Positions 10,394 through 22,478 of a DNA stretch of 23,578 bases are shown piece after piece (positions within the stretch are counted from its first letter, which is position 1; each line of letters opens with the position of its first letter). A program made the position numbers and the translations under genes. The stretch is from a virus, in the IMG/VR virus record IMGVR_UViG_3300025109_000071, positions 1-23,578 of that record; one strand, 5' to 3'. The notes beneath the pieces are model-generated. The model was not told the origin of the DNA, made no database searches, and was given only the letters and a program-made list of their open reading frames with translations.

Positions 10394-10421
10394 TTGACTA
10401 TGAAAATACAGTGTTTATAAT
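10394..10421 (+). promoter_or_regulatory. Rightward sigma-70 promoter giving a leaderless mRNA
   Basis: TTGACT (10394-10399), a 16-nt spacer and a perfect TATAAT (10416-10421). The usual start point falls on base 10428, the A of the ATG of the downstream regulator, so the transcript should be leaderless like lambda cI from PRM. Confidence 0.75.
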
Positions 10422-10427
10422 AGACCT

Positions 10428-10613
10428 ATGCCTATAAAAGAAACAGTGCTGAAGCACATTAAAGAGAACAGAGGTAGGTTACGGTTTGTTGCTAAACAAT
10501 CAGGCGTACCCTATCATACATTAATTAAGATCAGTTCAGGCCATACAAAGAACCCTGGAATAGACCATATTCAGCGGTTATATGACTTCTTTATGAGGAT
10601 TCCAGAAGAATGA
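10428..10613 (+). CDS. Cro/C1-type helix-turn-helix regulator
   Basis: A 61-residue protein consisting almost only of a lambda-repressor-type HTH: RLRFVAKQSGVPYHTLIKI (17-35) is a helix-turn-helix with the usual Ala and Gly in place, followed by NPGIDHIQRLYDFF, the conserved last helices of the fold. There is no room for a C-terminal oligomerisation or cleavage domain, so it is Cro-like in size. It lies divergent from the recombination operon behind a strong promoter and next to an inverted repeat covering the leftward promoter, so it probably represses that promoter and perhaps its own. No Shine-Dalgarno is visible, in line with a leaderless mRNA. A strong terminator follows, making it a single-gene unit. 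Confidence 0.8.
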   Translation: MPIKETVLKHIKENRGRLRFVAKQSGVPYHTLIKISSGHTKNPGIDHIQRLYDFFMRIPEE

Positions 10614-10621
10614 ACCCCTAA

Positions 10622-10677
10622 AGCCTTGCCCCCCCTTGCAAGGCTCTTTATGAGGGCTGTAATAGCCCTCTTTTTTT
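10622..10677 (+). terminator. Rho-independent terminator after the regulator, preceded by a second hairpin
   Basis: GAGGGCT (10652-10658), loop GTAAT, AGCCCTC (10664-10670) and seven T form a textbook intrinsic terminator. Just upstream AGCCTTGC (10622-10629) and GCAAGGCT (10638-10645) make another perfect 8-bp hairpin with an eight-base loop. Confidence 0.9.
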
Positions 10678-10717
10678 AAGGTTAGGAAAAGAAATTTAAC
10701 TTTATTCATGTTACATT

Positions 10718-10744
10718 GAACTTTTTAGTCATTTCATAGTCTAA
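10718..10744 (+). promoter_or_regulatory. Sigma-E/AlgU-like (ECF) promoter candidate 1
   Basis: GAACTT (10718-10723) followed by TTT, then GTCTAA (10739-10744), with 16 nt between AACTT and TCTAA. The boxes fit the gammaproteobacterial sigma-E pattern GGAACTT...GTCTAA. The same motif with the same spacing recurs at 15234. A sigma-70 reading (TTGAAC, 18 nt, TCTAAT) is possible. Transcription would start near 10750, just before the structured leader. Confidence 0.55.
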
Positions 10745-10760
10745 TGAGTATTAATGAGTA

Positions 10761-10892
10761 TTAAACACTTTGTCGCTAAGAAAGTCTTTTGATTTCTTGA
10801 CTCACTGTCCGAAAGGGCAGTCCTCTCTAGCGACAGGGTGTTTAAACTTGAGTCAAGAATTCTAAGGGCTTTTTTTATTCCCAAGATTCTTG
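10761..10892 (+). ncRNA. Structured leader RNA with long stem, GNRA hairpin and alternative pairings
   Basis: An 18-bp stem pairs 10761-10778 with 10828-10845 (two G-U pairs). Inside it are a 5-bp hairpin (AGAAA 10779-10783 with TTTCT 10793-10797) and a 7-bp hairpin ACTGTCC-GAAA-GGGCAGT (10804-10821) capped by a GNRA tetraloop. In addition TTCTTGACTCA (10794-10804), inside the stem loop, is perfectly complementary to TGAGTCAAGAA (10849-10859) beyond the stem, which gives either a pseudoknot or an alternative fold. A third pairing links CAAGAAT (10854-10860) with ATTCTTG (10886-10892), with GGG/CCC inside and a T-run in the loop. There is no credible long ORF here. It begins about 10 nt after the predicted start of the sigma-E-like promoter. 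Family unknown; an sRNA or a regulatory 5' leader of the middle operon are both possible. Confidence 0.6.
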
Positions 10893-11075
10893 TCCGTGAA
10901 CGCGCACACAGCGGCCAACGAAACTGGCGTAGAATGTTAGTAGCTACATTTCAAAAGGCTATCAGCCCTTTATTCAAAGCCAGGGTAGGAAAAGTAGGTT
11001 GATTCACCGCATTTCCTGTAAACACTCGTTTAAGTGGTAGGTATAGACTAGAAGCGCCAACTATAAATAGGCGGA
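10893..11075 (+). other. Leader region without a recognisable gene
   Basis: No ORF of useful length on either strand. Short inverted repeats occur (AAAGGCT near 10955 with AGCCCTTT, one bulge; GCCA/TGGC around 10914-10928). AGGCGGAG at 11069-11076 looks like a ribosome binding site for the micro-ORFs that follow. Confidence 0.4.
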
Positions 11076-11167
11076 GTGATAAGTGAGAGACGAATTAATC
11101 CTGCGGGATTACCATATTGTGATATTAGACCACATACGGCTTGGCTATGAGAGAAACTAAACCATGA
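11076..11167 (+). CDS. Micro-ORF chain (24 and 6 residues) leading into the middle operon
   Basis: A GTG ORF (11076-11150, 24 residues ending in HTAWL) ends in ATGA with an ATG ORF (11147-11167, MRETKP), which ends in ATGA with the ATG of the first operon gene at 11164. A competing frame, GTG 11083-11160 (25 residues, MRDELILRDYHI...), has the better spacing (7 nt) from GGAG. Which one is translated cannot be told. A leader-peptide or coupling role is inference from geometry. Confidence 0.3.
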
Positions 11168-11451
11168 TGAATCCTGAAGACTTAGAGAATTGGGTAACAA
11201 AGCTACAAGATAGAATTGATAGCCTAGAAACCCGCATTTCCAAACTAGAAGAGAAGAAAACTCGCTTTAAAAAACCTACAATTTGTGAAATTCGGGCTTA
11301 CGCTGGTGAAATAGACTTTGAAATTGACGCAGCCACATTTTTTAACCACTACGAGTCAAACGGATGGATGGTTGGTAGAGGTAATAGGATGAAGGATTGG
11401 CAAGCCTCAGTAAGAGTTTGGAAGAAGATGAAAGATAGTTATGCAAAATAG
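11164..11451 (+). CDS. Coiled-coil protein with GWMVG...MKDWQASVR motif
   Basis: A 95-residue protein. Residues 8-32 form a coiled coil (NWVTKLQDRIDSLETRISKL). The rest, KPTICEIRAYAGE, then FFNHYESNGWMVGRGNRMKD and WQASVRVWKK, matches a C-terminal module often seen in phage and plasmid replication-initiation or replisome-organiser proteins (Y...GW.VG...MKDWKAAVRxW). There the module follows a DNA-binding domain; here it follows only a coiled coil, so this may be an accessory or degraded replication protein. Two ATGs (11164 and 11167) are possible. First sizeable gene of the middle operon; overlaps the next gene by 11 nt. Confidence 0.7.
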   Translation: MMNPEDLENWVTKLQDRIDSLETRISKLEEKKTRFKKPTICEIRAYAGEIDFEIDAATFFNHYESNGWMVGRGNRMKDWQASVRVWKKMKDSYAK

Positions 11452-11861: not shown

Positions 11862-12067
11862 AACGCCAAAATCTCTCACAACAAAAAATATGGGCAATGA
11901 AAGACACCTGTTCCACTTGTCGTTTTGTAAGGATACAGCCCTTACCTAGCGCCCACTATGACGAACTGGTTTGGATCTGTCACAGAGAGGATGAAACGCC
12001 CGTACCACCCCAAGCATTTTGTAACGAATATGTGAGCGTAGAGGATGCTGACAACCCCCGCAGATAA
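11858..12067 (+). CDS. Small four-cysteine protein, unknown
   Basis: A 69-residue protein with CSTC (18-21), a CHRE element near 41 and FCNEY near 54: four cysteines plus a His, suitable for one zinc site. Small proteins with this C-x2-C...C-H...C-N pattern are frequent in phage replication/nin-type regions, but I cannot name the family. AAGAGAG precedes the ATG. The end overlaps the next gene by 23 nt. Confidence 0.65.
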   Translation: MKRQNLSQQKIWAMKDTCSTCRFVRIQPLPSAHYDELVWICHREDETPVPPQAFCNEYVSVEDADNPRR

Positions 12068-12455
12068 GGCTTTTAGCCGAGCTATTCGTGAGTCGTATGA
12101 GTGGACTTGTCAGCGTTGTGGCACTATTTACACCCCCCCAACGAAAGCCCTACATTGTATGCACTTTAAGACCAGAGGTAATTGGTCAACAAGATTTATC
12201 CCTGATAACGCTGCGGCTGGTTGTTATGGTTGCCATAGGTATATTGACGGACACGCTGCTGAGAAAGATATGTTCTTTCTAAAAAATATAGGTGAGGGAA
12301 GGTTTGAGGAAATTGAACGGATAGCAAACACCCCTGCTCACGGGATTAAAAGGCAATTAAAAGATATAGCCAAGCATTATCGTGAGGAATACGCCAGAAT
12401 AAGAGAGTTACGCGAAGAAGGTAAAACAGGTTATATAGAGTTGATTGAATTTTGA
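12045..12455 (+). CDS. NinG-like recombination/HNH-type zinc protein
   Basis: A 136-residue protein that resembles lambda NinG (Rap), a Holliday-junction-targeting structure-specific nuclease. Visible elements are WTCQRCG (20-26), ALHCMHFKTRG (35-45), then PDNAAAGCYGCHRYIDGH: two Cys pairs with intervening His residues arranged as in NinG and HNH-related proteins, followed by a helical tail (GRFEEIERIAN). NinG is usually longer (about 200 residues), so this is a compact version. Its place beside other small zinc proteins recalls the lambda nin region. The assignment rests on motif order; a different HNH-type nuclease is the main alternative. Confidence 0.6.
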   Translation: MLTTPADKAFSRAIRESYEWTCQRCGTIYTPPTKALHCMHFKTRGNWSTRFIPDNAAAGCYGCHRYIDGHAAEKDMFFLKNIGEGRFEEIERIANTPAHGIKRQLKDIAKHYREEYARIRELREEGKTGYIELIEF

Positions 12456-12806: not shown

Positions 12807-12838
12807 GCGAAGCAAATAAAACCCAAGGGGATGCGTGA
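12803..12838 (+). CDS. Micro-ORF, 11 residues, bridging to the methyltransferase
   Basis: MSEANKTQGDA; GGAG lies 8 nt before its ATG. Its ATG overlaps the upstream stop and its TGA overlaps the GTG start of the methyltransferase (GTGA). Within it AGGGG serves the methyltransferase start. Translational coupling is the likely meaning; a functional peptide is less likely. Confidence 0.35.
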   Translation: MSEANKTQGDA

Positions 12839-13494
12839 GTAACCCAATTATAATCGGCAACGCCACGCTCTACCTTGGTGACTGTCTCGAAATTCTCCCA
12901 ACACTTGAGAAAGTGGATGCGGTGATCACTGATCCGCCTTATGGGATAGGTGAGGCTGCAGGAAAAAACGCTAGTAGGGGAAAATTAGCAAAAGTCACAG
13001 TTTTTGATAATGACGATTGGGATAATGCCCCCGCAAGCACAGAGCAATTAGCTGCAGCCATATCCATATCAATAGAGCAAGTTATATTTGGCGGAAATTA
13101 CTTTGACTTGCCGCCCTCATCCTGTTGGCTTATTTGGGATAAGGTTAATGGTAAGTCAGATTTTGCAGATTGTGAATTGGCGTGGACTAATATTAATGGC
13201 GCGGCAAGATTAAAGCGTTACCAATGGGCGGGAATGCTGCAGGAAAATATGAAAAATAAGGAAATCAGAGTACACCCAACACAAAAACCAGTCCCCGTTA
13301 TGGAATGGGCTATTACAAACTGTAAGAAAGACCCTCAAACAATCCTAGATCCATTCATGGGATCTGGGACAACAGGCGTAGCTTGTATGAACCTAGGAAG
13401 GAAGTTTATAGGAATAGAGATTGAACCTAAGTATTTCGATATAGCCTGTGAACGAATTGAACAAGCGCAAAAGCAAGTTAGGTTGTTTGAATGA
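12835..13494 (+). CDS. DNA N6-adenine / N4-cytosine methyltransferase, beta class
   Basis: A 219-residue SAM-dependent DNA methyltransferase. Catalytic motif IV is DPPYGIG (33-39), N-terminal to the SAM-binding motif I DPFMGSGTTG (172-181); this order defines the beta class. HPTQKP (about residue 144) is motif X. The target-recognition region lies between (about 50-140) and is short, so the enzyme is small for its family. GTG start in a GTGA overlap, with AGGGG 5-6 nt upstream. No partner endonuclease is next to it, so it is probably an orphan protecting phage DNA from host restriction. DPPY fits either N6-adenine or N4-cytosine, and the sequence recognised cannot be read. The first 20 codons recur at the start of the following ORF. 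Confidence 0.9.
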   Translation: MSNPIIIGNATLYLGDCLEILPTLEKVDAVITDPPYGIGEAAGKNASRGKLAKVTVFDNDDWDNAPASTEQLAAAISISIEQVIFGGNYFDLPPSSCWLIWDKVNGKSDFADCELAWTNINGAARLKRYQWAGMLQENMKNKEIRVHPTQKPVPVMEWAITNCKKDPQTILDPFMGSGTTGVACMNLGRKFIGIEIEPKYFDIACERIEQAQKQVRLFE

Positions 13495-13721
13495 AAGAAA
13501 TCATAGGAAACGCCACGTTATACCTTGGTGACTGTCTCGAAATACTCCCGACCCTTGAGAGGGAAACTCTAACAGTGCCCTTAAATAAAAACTTCCGAGA
13601 TTGGAAATTTGAAGGTTCAATGTCCTCACAATACAAACAAATTGGTAATGCAGTCCCAGTTAATATGGCATTTGCATTAGGCAGATCAATTGTAAGACTG
13701 TTAAACCACATAAGAAGGTAA
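13491..13721 (+). pseudogene. Chimeric methyltransferase remnant (N-MTase start joined to C5-MTase end)
   Basis: A 76-residue ORF. Residues 4-23 (IIGNATLYLGDCLEILPTLE) repeat the start of the preceding methyltransferase; DNA 13501-13560 matches 12851-12910 at 52 of 60 bases. After the join, residues about 38-73 (WKFEGSMSSQYKQIGNAVPV, then NMAFALGRSIVRLL) are the C-terminal end of a cytosine-C5 methyltransferase (motif X, QIGNAVP). All catalytic motifs of both enzymes are missing, so it should be inactive as a methyltransferase. It is a deletion or recombination scar of a once larger methyltransferase locus. It still has an ATGA-coupled start and an intact frame, so a small protein may be made. 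Confidence 0.8.
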
Positions 13722-13734
13722 ATTATTCGCATAA

Positions 13735-14346
13735 ATGTACCACTACGGTAGCATCATCCACCCTAATGACAAACGGGAAACCGAACAAGCCCCAGATCAA
13801 GTCTCATCAGACCCACGATGGTACTTAGGTTATACTAGGATGGGACAAGAGATTAAAGTTGAACAAAGGTTATTCGATATATTCAACGGCACAAATGATC
13901 TTAAAATTTATGGAGTTTACTGCCCTAAAACAAGGGGTGATGCCAGGAAAAAACAGCAATACATGATCGCATTATATCCATCTTATATTTTTGTCAAGAT
14001 GAACCGCGAGAGTGAGTTTAAAAAGGTAGAATCTGTGCTAGGACGCTGGTTAGTGGCAGTAACGTGCTTTGGGGGGGTTAAAAACTATAGCACAACGACC
14101 GATAAATTTATTCAACGATTAAAGAAGAGGGAAAACGACAAAGGACAGATCATCACAGGCCAAAGCGAATACATGGTCGGCGACAAGGTTAAAATTATAG
14201 GGGGCCCCATGAAAGCCCCTTCCAACATGGCTTACACAGCAATAATTGACGAAATAAAGCGCAAAGTAGCAACATTATGGCTGTATCGTGACCCGCAGAG
14301 AAAGCCTATTCATGGGGTAAAATTAGAATGGCTGGAGCCAGTTTGA
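13735..14346 (+). CDS. NusG/RfaH-like transcription antitermination factor
   Basis: A 203-residue phage NusG paralogue. NusG-family proteins bind the RNA polymerase clamp through an NGN domain and affect pausing and termination; specialised paralogues (RfaH, LoaP) act on one operon. NGN features: RWYLGYTRMGQEIKVEQRLF (28-47), GVYCPKTR and ALYPSYIFVKM, then FKKVESVLGRW. The KOW domain is near 148-170 (MVGDKVKIIGGPMK). An N-terminal extension of about 27 residues lacks similarity. No good Shine-Dalgarno is seen within 12 nt of the ATG (AAGAAGG is about 20 nt away), so expression may be low. It would be expected to help transcription through phage operons; which operon is unknown. Confidence 0.8.
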   Translation: MYHYGSIIHPNDKRETEQAPDQVSSDPRWYLGYTRMGQEIKVEQRLFDIFNGTNDLKIYGVYCPKTRGDARKKQQYMIALYPSYIFVKMNRESEFKKVESVLGRWLVAVTCFGGVKNYSTTTDKFIQRLKKRENDKGQIITGQSEYMVGDKVKIIGGPMKAPSNMAYTAIIDEIKRKVATLWLYRDPQRKPIHGVKLEWLEPV

Positions 14347-19871: not shown

Positions 19872-20726
19872 TTATGCTGCTCTTCTGTTCTTTTCTTGCA
19901 TTTCAACAAGATAATCTAAAGCTGCTTGCGCCTTGGCTGCGGCACTAAAAATAAATTTGTTATCTTTTCTTAGAATCCTAAGCCATGACTTGATGTAGAT
20001 AGCGTGATCATCTCGCGGAGTTGAATCTAATTTGAGACTGCCCATGTTAAATGCTGATCCAAGTTCCGCGATTAGCTCTTCATACGCATAATCTTTGCCG
20101 CCATAGCAGCCGTTCATATTACGATCTAACCTAGATTTATGTCCGGTGGCATGTGTGAGTTCGTGAAACAATACAGAATAATAGTTGTTCGTGTCTTTAA
20201 ATTGCCCTAACTCCGGCATGTGAACCTGATTAATTGAAGGAATGAAACAAGCACGATCAAATCCGTGCTTTATGTTTATACCAGAATTGTAGATAAAACT
20301 ATCAACATGTTCTATTGATTTATTATCATTTAATGGTATTATTTTGGGTTCATATCCGTCTACCTGAGAACAATTAAATACAGTCGAATATCTCATTAAG
20401 GGGATAGTTTTATCCTCTTCTGTCACTTTGTCTTTGATTTTGAGAGCTTTATAAAAAATTACCGGATAGCCTTTCGAGCCTTTTTGAACTTGCGCTCCTA
20501 TTGATTCCCATTGTTTATATGTGGCGAACTCTAACGTATTGAATCCTGATAAACCAAGCCAAAGTGTATTGATACCATGGTATTGCTTGTGAGTTACTGC
20601 ATTTTTTGGTATCTCTCCTAGAGTAAACCAAGGTTGGCTGTAATCTGAAGATTCGCATGTTTCCAATTGTTCTATTATTCTGTCCGTTATACGTTGGCGT
20701 AAATTGTCAATATTATTCGTTTTCAT
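19872..20726 (-). CDS. ardC: ArdC-type antirestriction protein (ssDNA-binding domain plus zincin)
   Basis: A 284-residue protein of the ArdC family, which protects incoming DNA against restriction. The N-terminal ssDNA-binding domain (about 1-125) includes QPWFTLGEIPKNAVTHKQYH (31-50), GINTLWLGLSG, KQWESIGAQVQKGSKGYPVI (71-90) and the TVFNCSQVDG end. The C-terminal zincin-like domain has HELTHATGHKSRLDR (188-202; H188, E189, H192) and YEELIAELGSAF (215-226), which supplies the third ligand. Length and domain order are normal. AGGGGATAAATATA precedes the ATG. It is the one recognisable host-defence counter gene of the leftward accessory operon; early entry expression would suit its role. Confidence 0.92.
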   Translation of the reverse strand: MKTNNIDNLRQRITDRIIEQLETCESSDYSQPWFTLGEIPKNAVTHKQYHGINTLWLGLSGFNTLEFATYKQWESIGAQVQKGSKGYPVIFYKALKIKDKVTEEDKTIPLMRYSTVFNCSQVDGYEPKIIPLNDNKSIEHVDSFIYNSGINIKHGFDRACFIPSINQVHMPELGQFKDTNNYYSVLFHELTHATGHKSRLDRNMNGCYGGKDYAYEELIAELGSAFNMGSLKLDSTPRDDHAIYIKSWLRILRKDNKFIFSAAAKAQAALDYLVEMQEKNRRAA

Positions 20727-21712: not shown

Positions 21713-21739
21713 AAAAAAAAACCCGCAACAAGGCGGGTT
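21713..21739 (-). terminator. Leftward Rho-independent terminator (copy 1)
   Basis: Read leftward: AACCCGC, loop CTTGTT, GCGGGTT, then a T-run (nine A on the plus strand, two of them within the stem). It ends the short leftward gene at 21773-21958. It is part of a 32-bp segment identical to 22449-22480. Confidence 0.9.
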
Positions 21740-21772: not shown

Positions 21773-21958
21773 TTAACTGTAATTCACTACAATTTTCATG
21801 ATATTGAATTCTGGCTGGATCAGATTGTCTGGATAACGCCTATCTACTATAGATGCAACGCTATTAAGTGACAGTCTGCCATTGTGCCGAAATCGTTTGA
21901 ATTCGCGCATTGACTGACTATGACCAGAGTTGTTAAATAATTGGATTGTAGTTTTCAT
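21773..21958 (-). CDS. Unknown small basic protein (61 residues)
   Basis: MKTTIQLFNNSGHSQSMREF, then KRFRHNGRLSLNSVASIVDR and a short C-terminus. The spacing of Leu, Arg and Ser is compatible with a small DNA-binding protein, but no HTH can be claimed. AGGGGTAAGAA precedes the ATG. It stands alone between a terminator and the divergent small-terminase gene. Confidence 0.6.
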   Translation of the reverse strand: MKTTIQLFNNSGHSQSMREFKRFRHNGRLSLNSVASIVDRRYPDNLIQPEFNIMKIVVNYS

Positions 21959-22085
21959 TTCTTACCCCTATTTGAAGTTGCTTGCAATGTAGTCATAATT
22001 AAATACTAGTACAGTCAGATCATATAATCAAGTAAAATCATTCAAAATCGTACAAATAAACCAAAATAATAGCAGACACTAACCA

Positions 22086-22478
22086 ATGGCTAGACCCACT
22101 AAGTATACGACTGAATTAGTCAATAAAGCACGGCATTATGTTGATAATTATGAGGATTACGATGATTTAATCCCTAGCGTGGCTGGCTTGGCGAGTGTTG
22201 TTGGTACTTGCAGAGAGACATTGCACGTTTGGGCGAAGCAAGATGGGAAGAAGGAGTTATCTAACATATTAAGAGAACTAAAGACAGAACAAGAGCGTGT
22301 ACTTATATCCAACGGTTTAAATAACACATTTAACCCAACTATAGTCAAGCTTGTGTTGGGCAAGCATGGCTATTCTGACAAACAACAACTTGAACACTCG
22401 GGTGAAGTTAAAATAGAGCGCGTCATGTATACGGACCAGAAGAACGGGCAAAAAAAAACCCGCAACAAGGCGGGTTAA
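22086..22478 (+). CDS. terS: Terminase small subunit / DNA-packaging protein
   Basis: A 130-residue protein resembling P22 gp3-type small terminase subunits, which recognise the packaging site and present DNA to the large subunit. The opening MARPTKYTTELVNKARHYVD is typical, then IPSVAGLASVVGTCRETLHV (29-48), an HTH-like DNA-binding part, and FNPTIVKLVLGKHGYSDKQQ (82-101), the usual C-terminal block. The end is basic (KNGQKKTRNKAG). No Shine-Dalgarno is seen before the ATG. Unusually, it is separated from the large-subunit gene by about 1 kb with two opposing genes and a repeat region. Its last eight codons double as a terminator on the other strand. Confidence 0.8.
   Translation: MARPTKYTTELVNKARHYVDNYEDYDDLIPSVAGLASVVGTCRETLHVWAKQDGKKELSNILRELKTEQERVLISNGLNNTFNPTIVKLVLGKHGYSDKQQLEHSGEVKIERVMYTDQKNGQKKTRNKAG
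22450..22476 (-). terminator. Leftward terminator (copy 2) inside the terS 3' end
   Basis: The same hairpin as at 21713 (AACCCGC/GCGGGTT plus T-run on the minus strand). Here the sequence encodes KKTRNKAG and the stop of terS. It would end transcripts of the two leftward genes at 22495-23060. Confidence 0.9.

Follow-up and report, generated by a model that had tools for sequence, protein, structure and literature searches.

Gene order around the element

The window analysed here is the whole of virus record IMGVR_UViG_3300025109_000071, a stretch of 23.6 kb (23,578 nt) that is probably a fragment. Gene order around the element is lambda-like, running from a cro-like gene through terminators and the element itself to a replication-type gene (Table 1). 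Further 3' of the replication-type gene lie NinG, a DNA methyltransferase, a NusG-family gene where lambda has Q, and an M23 peptidase. The promoter-like TTGAAC-18-TCTAAT upstream of the element fell below the rule of the stricter promoter scan and so went unreported by the scanner, and the tandem TAATGAGTAT repeat that overlaps its -10 and the presumed start is, as read from the sequence, a possible operator. We found no convincing ORF in the 550 bases between 10613 and 11164 and none of at least 60 aa, which bears out the original prediction of a gene-free interval of more than 500 bp. Its placement of the element at the very 5' end of the operon transcript agrees with the gene order, but the promoter it predicts matches the consensus only weakly.

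Table 1. Features of the element and its surroundings (positions are those of the window)
Feature	Position	Strand	Basis or remark
Sigma-70-like promoter of cro-like gene, TTGACT-16-TATAAT	10394-10421	+	11/12 consensus matches
cro/CI-like 61-aa repressor gene, 5' of the element	10428-10613	+	PHROG 9425 transcriptional repressor, E 9e-15
Tandem terminator-like hairpins at the end of the cro-like gene	10620-10677	+	GAGGGCTGTAATAGCCCTC-TTTTTTT from scan; first hairpin AAAGCCTTGC/GCAAGGCT read from sequence
Weak promoter-like TTGAAC-18-TCTAAT	10716-10745	+	Read from sequence; start expected near 10752
Two head-to-tail TAATGAGTAT copies over -10 and presumed start	10742-10761	+	Read from sequence
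S1, 5' arm	10761-10778	+	18 consecutive bp: 16 Watson-Crick and 2 G-U
S2, 5' arm	10778-10804	+	27-nt inverted repeat; 25/27 paired with G-U allowed
Inner 7-bp hairpin, GAAA tetraloop	10804-10821	+	Fold -9.9 kcal/mol
S1, 3' arm	10828-10845	+	Pairs with 10761-10778
S2, 3' arm	10849-10875	+	Last six bases are U
Third pairing, 5' arm, competing with S2	10854-10860	+	In MFE once 10890-10896 is transcribed
U7 tract at foot of S2, terminator-like end	10870-10876	+	Sequence
Third pairing, 3' arm	10886-10892	+	Growing-transcript MFEs
Remainder of leader, not structured above chance level, lacking a convincing ORF	10893-11163	+	z -0.34 for 10880-11166 (287 bases)
First operon gene	11164-11451	+	Matches C-terminal part of phage replication-initiation proteins / DUF4373 proteins
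NinG-like recombination gene	12045-12455	+	In operon
NusG/RfaH/UpxY/LoaP-type specialised NusG paralogue, at lambda Q position	13735-14346	+	Pfam, NCBIfam and PHROG matches

Several observations were made elsewhere in the window. The ORF at 13491-13721 (+) begins with the same IIGNATLYLGDCLEILPTLE as the preceding methyltransferase ORF (12835-13494, +) and ends with QIGNAVPVNMAFALGRSIV, which we take to be a motif of C5-methyltransferases; judged from its sequence, it resembles what is left of two methyltransferase genes after fusion. On the minus strand, 19872-20726 encodes an ArdC-type anti-restriction protein with a zincin-like domain, and two identical terminator-like hairpins (AACCCGCCTTGTTGCGGGTT followed by T7) stand 740 bp apart at 21720-21739 and 22457-22476.

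Two long stems that cross

The element spans some 125 bases before the replication-gene block and carries two long stems, S1 and S2, whose arms follow one another in the order S1a-S2a-hairpin-S1b-S2b, so that the stems interleave and cross rather than nest. Together with the GAAA hairpin they take up nearly all bases from 10761 to 10875. S2 is 81% Watson-Crick, and its two unpaired positions are U·U mismatches; the window has no longer inverted repeat within 150 bp. Because S1 and S2 have just one base in common (10778), the conflict between them is topological, not base-by-base; exclusive by base are only S2 and the third pairing, and S2 and the inner folds.

This arrangement departs from the original prediction of three exclusive pairings of one segment, which is wrong for S1 and S2, since these tile the element without sharing a strand. 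Its individual helices fared better. An 18-bp stem with two G-U pairs does enclose the GAAA hairpin, its 3' arm now corrected to 10828-10845, and the 11-bp perfect pairing of 10794-10804 with 10849-10859 is present as well, as only the innermost tip of the 27-nt S2. The pairing of 10854-10860 with 10886-10892 was recovered by folding. The U7 tract at the end of S2 had not been linked to this repeat.

The structure exceeds chance and modestly favours RNA

On the + strand, 10755-10900 folds with an MFE of -50.7 kcal/mol (z -5.4), which none of 200 shuffles bettered; the minus-strand fold is weaker (z -4.3). A first scan for crossing helices with loose G-U scoring returned many chance matches in shuffles and loci, and an energy-weighted score was used instead (G-C 3, A-U 2, G-U 0.5, mismatch -3). 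By this energy-like measure the two stems score 39 and 46.5, giving a weaker arm of 39 and a sum of 85.5. The observed pair was equalled in none of 953 dinucleotide shuffles of the whole window (best weaker arm 32, best sum 73.5) and in none of 8017 shuffles of 10680-11163 (maxima 30 and 61.5, respectively). Phage and host loci, ~5.4 Mb of strand sequence in all, reached an equal level only in tandem-repeat or GC-rich stretches.

Each of the five transition positions outside Watson-Crick pairing is G-U, not A-C, on the + strand (1/32 if neutral), and this, together with the weaker minus-strand fold, modestly favours a + strand RNA. The earlier argument from G-U pairs to selection on RNA thus holds to that modest extent. 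The element is a highly non-random structured RNA candidate, a real structure that is an orphan in the available data, and the expectation of a leader RNA whose structure includes competing or crossing folds is supported both by the fold z of -5.4 and by a crossing pair unmatched in shuffles.

Searches for homologues

The Rfam 15 covariance models gave no match at the gathering cut-off in the window and only chance-level matches at E up to 5, in agreement with the original prediction, which recognised no RNA family and proposed this search. Comparison of the element with phages and plasmids by blastn returned nothing. Viral contigs were scanned for S1 and S2 with exact or structured DNA patterns, and genomes with one S2/terminator pattern; every match carried a single stem, inside unrelated sequence. 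Searching the records of 50 relatives and 98 loci (1.47 Mb) with covariance models for the S1 fold and the S2 fold found nothing, but this absence of homologues is weak evidence because single-sequence models are insensitive. The ERF relatives come from mixed hosts, many of them alphaproteobacteria, with the cyanophages Pam1 and Mae-JY35 among the nearest named phages.

Other structures were also noted. One relative's locus (L130, 5986-6118) has a long imperfect hairpin with 40-nt arms in the intergenic gap upstream of its ERF gene, and three viral contigs (L073, L074 and L002) carry palindromic tandem-repeat arrays (TTTCTGTAGRATTCTACAGAAA units; AAAACTCTTTGAAGAGTTTT units). No tRNA or tmRNA was found, and small leader ORFs, including an Arg-rich 54-aa frame at 10838-11002, were unsupported.

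Folding order and a possible attenuator

In MFEs of the growing transcript, S1 is already complete at 10848, at a point where S2 cannot yet form, and S2 never appears. With the U tract transcribed (to 10880), S1 gives a fold of -43.3 kcal/mol and S2 a terminator-like fold of -40.2 kcal/mol, within about 3 kcal/mol of each other. Fifteen bases on, at 10895, addition of the third pairing to S1 makes the S1 fold clearly better (-50.7 versus -41.0 kcal/mol). In a sequence lacking the S1 5' arm, the S2 fold forms, at -40.2 kcal/mol. The 11-bp perfect part of S2, about one helical turn, could also form atop S1 as a pseudoknot.

We tentatively read the element, with confidence that stops somewhat short of even, as a cis-acting co-transcriptional attenuator in the 5' leader of the replication/early operon, in which S1 would mean read-through and S2 termination. 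The modelled folds supply what an attenuator needs: a read-through fold that forms early, an alternative resembling a terminator, and a lock that acts once the decision point is passed. Polymerase would start near 10752 and make S1 first, as the presumed default. S1 would then close a loop that traps the S2 5' arm, so that the long S2 hairpin could not wind fully and read-through would result; past the U tract, the third pairing would remove the S2 3' arm and fix the read-through state. Were S1 blocked or opened by a protein, by an antisense or second RNA copy, or by slow or paused transcription, S2 would form and, with its U7 tail, would act as an intrinsic terminator, stopping transcription after about 125 nt and releasing a short RNA. 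We infer that the region is transcribed, that termination would occur at S2 and that some signal chooses the state; exclusion of S1 and S2 would be topological, with S2a trapped in the S1 loop.

This reading is favoured because the crossing stems are far beyond chance and the 25-bp S2 hairpin finishes precisely at U7, because the energies of S1 and S2 are near-equal, with S1 first and S2 forming without the S1 5' arm, and because the structure is confined to the element, which is located after cro and the tandem terminators and before the replication gene. Against it, S1 and S2 are without a common strand, unlike the stems of textbook attenuators, so that competition between them is only topological; in addition, the promoter is weak and, with no homologues found, there is no covariation to weigh. 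S2 may be a poor terminator, given its A-U/G-U-rich base beside the U tract and its 44-nt loop. The terminator scanner, being limited to loops of 3-8, did not call S2. Neither a ligand nor a leader peptide nor a trans factor was identified for the switch. Attenuators usually choose between helices that share a strand, whereas here order of folding and topology alone could decide; for studies of co-transcriptional folding and of phage control over entry into replication-gene expression, such an element would be a clean model.

Alternative readings of the element

The same features could belong to a stand-alone phage sRNA of ~125 nt (10752-10876) with S2 as its terminator, acting in trans or as an immunity RNA like IsrK, P4 CI RNA and P1/P7 c4 RNA, with occasional read-through giving the operon mRNA. 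All of the structure lies between the possible start and the U7 tract, the 287 nt downstream being unstructured, and IsrK of Gifsy-1 offers a prophage precedent for terminator read-through into mRNA combined with control of an antiterminator gene (PMC4825925). We nevertheless hold such an sRNA to be fairly unlikely, given that Rfam includes sRNA families of this kind and no match was found even at E up to 5, that complementarity to the translation starts in the window is no greater than that of random stretches, and that the long perfect stems leave few bases free for target pairing.

A further candidate function is suggested by the NusG-like protein of the operon. It passes the cut-off of Pfam NusG (2.3e-7) and matches PHROG 6386 (antiterminator), while its NCBIfam matches to RfaH (5.6e-11), UpxY (1e-10) and LoaP (1.3e-7; 31.9 bits against a cut-off of 125) are all under cut-off; its AlphaFold model is poor (mean pLDDT 42). 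Specialised NusG proteins act in leaders, LoaP through a leader RNA hairpin (PMC12691694) and UpxY in 5' leaders (PMC7819879), which makes a link between this protein and the element plausible. The element might then load an antitermination factor onto polymerase, as do put (factor-free), nut and the LoaP dfn hairpin, with the operon's own NusG-like protein as partner. Its location at the operon start fits, HK022 putL lying just downstream of an early promoter (PMC9378689). Among the records of 100 relatives, however, the only other NusG-family gene is in G001 (21884-22153), in an equivalent position and also upstream of lysis genes, and downstream of the cro gene in G001 nothing comparable to the element is present, the space there being small. 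Neither boxA nor ops sites rise above chance: ops had no match in 10752-11164 with up to 2 mismatches and a chance-level count in the window, and boxA-like sites are absent from the element on the + strand, with a window count below chance, GCTCTTTA occurring only in the upstream terminators (10643-10650). The simple stem-loops of put do not cross, and a NusG-like gene at the Q position suggests a late-gene role. A loading element is on balance unlikely. The coupling of such an element to an operon with its own NusG-type factor merits tests for antitermination beyond the lambda N/Q paradigm.

A bolder proposal is a giant-pseudoknot regulator of a new class, in which 18- and ~25-bp stems would tile the whole RNA and cross (S1 together with the 11-bp turn of S2 or more), and in which topological trapping rather than base competition would decide between termination and read-through. 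We rate this, a claim resting on one sequence, as decidedly unlikely. An mRNA stability or processing element, that is, a 5' double-stranded cap or RNase III site with no switch, would suit 18- and 25-bp helices placed right at the 5' terminus of the putative mRNA but leaves the crossing order, the near-equal energies and the U7 tract unexplained, and is very unlikely. Scarcely probable, too, is a DNA-level feature (an operator, or a site of replication or recombination), or inverted repeats left over from rearrangement, with an incidental RNA fold: the arms do contain the palindromic CTTGAGTCAAG, a replication gene follows and the element is an orphan, but the five G-U positions and the stronger + fold speak for RNA, TTGASTCAA-type sites are not repeated near promoters, and there are no iterons downstream.

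Comparison with known systems

Like HK022 put RNA, the element would be a structured phage RNA lying where an early operon begins. put is ~70 nt long and consists of two adjacent simple stem-loops (PMC9378689), whereas the element has interleaved 18- and 25-bp stems over ~115 nt; its predicted fold of a long stem, inner hairpins and a crossing stem is not that of a put RNA. With the LoaP/dfn leader it has in common a leader RNA structure and a terminator, here with a NusG-type paralogue in the same operon. LoaP, however, binds a small UNCG-type hairpin (PMC12691694), while the hairpin of the element has a GAAA loop, the NusG-like protein is below the LoaP cut-off and the association is not conserved. 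With this loop the element is not a LoaP-type leader, nor does it belong to an RfaH/ops system, having no ops match, or represent a lambda nut site, having no boxA-like site within it on the + strand.

P1/P7 c4 RNA comes from a phage leader with a terminator that gives a short RNA or a longer mRNA. IsrK (Gifsy-1) and P4 CI RNA resemble the element in the same respect, their phage leader terminators yielding either product, and P4 CI RNA pairs with leader sequences to bring about termination (PMC4825925). The element differs from all three in having no sequence or covariance-model match to them, and no target complementarity was found in the window.

Our preferred reading sets the element beside the transcription attenuators. 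No leader peptide, T-box or riboswitch aptamer was recognised in it, and unlike those of attenuators its main stems cross and have almost no nucleotides in common. What it shares with them is a position in the 5' leader, predicted alternative folds of similar energy, an early fold that would block the terminator, and a terminator-like hairpin with a U tract, provided here by the predicted S2 ending at U7 (10870-10876).
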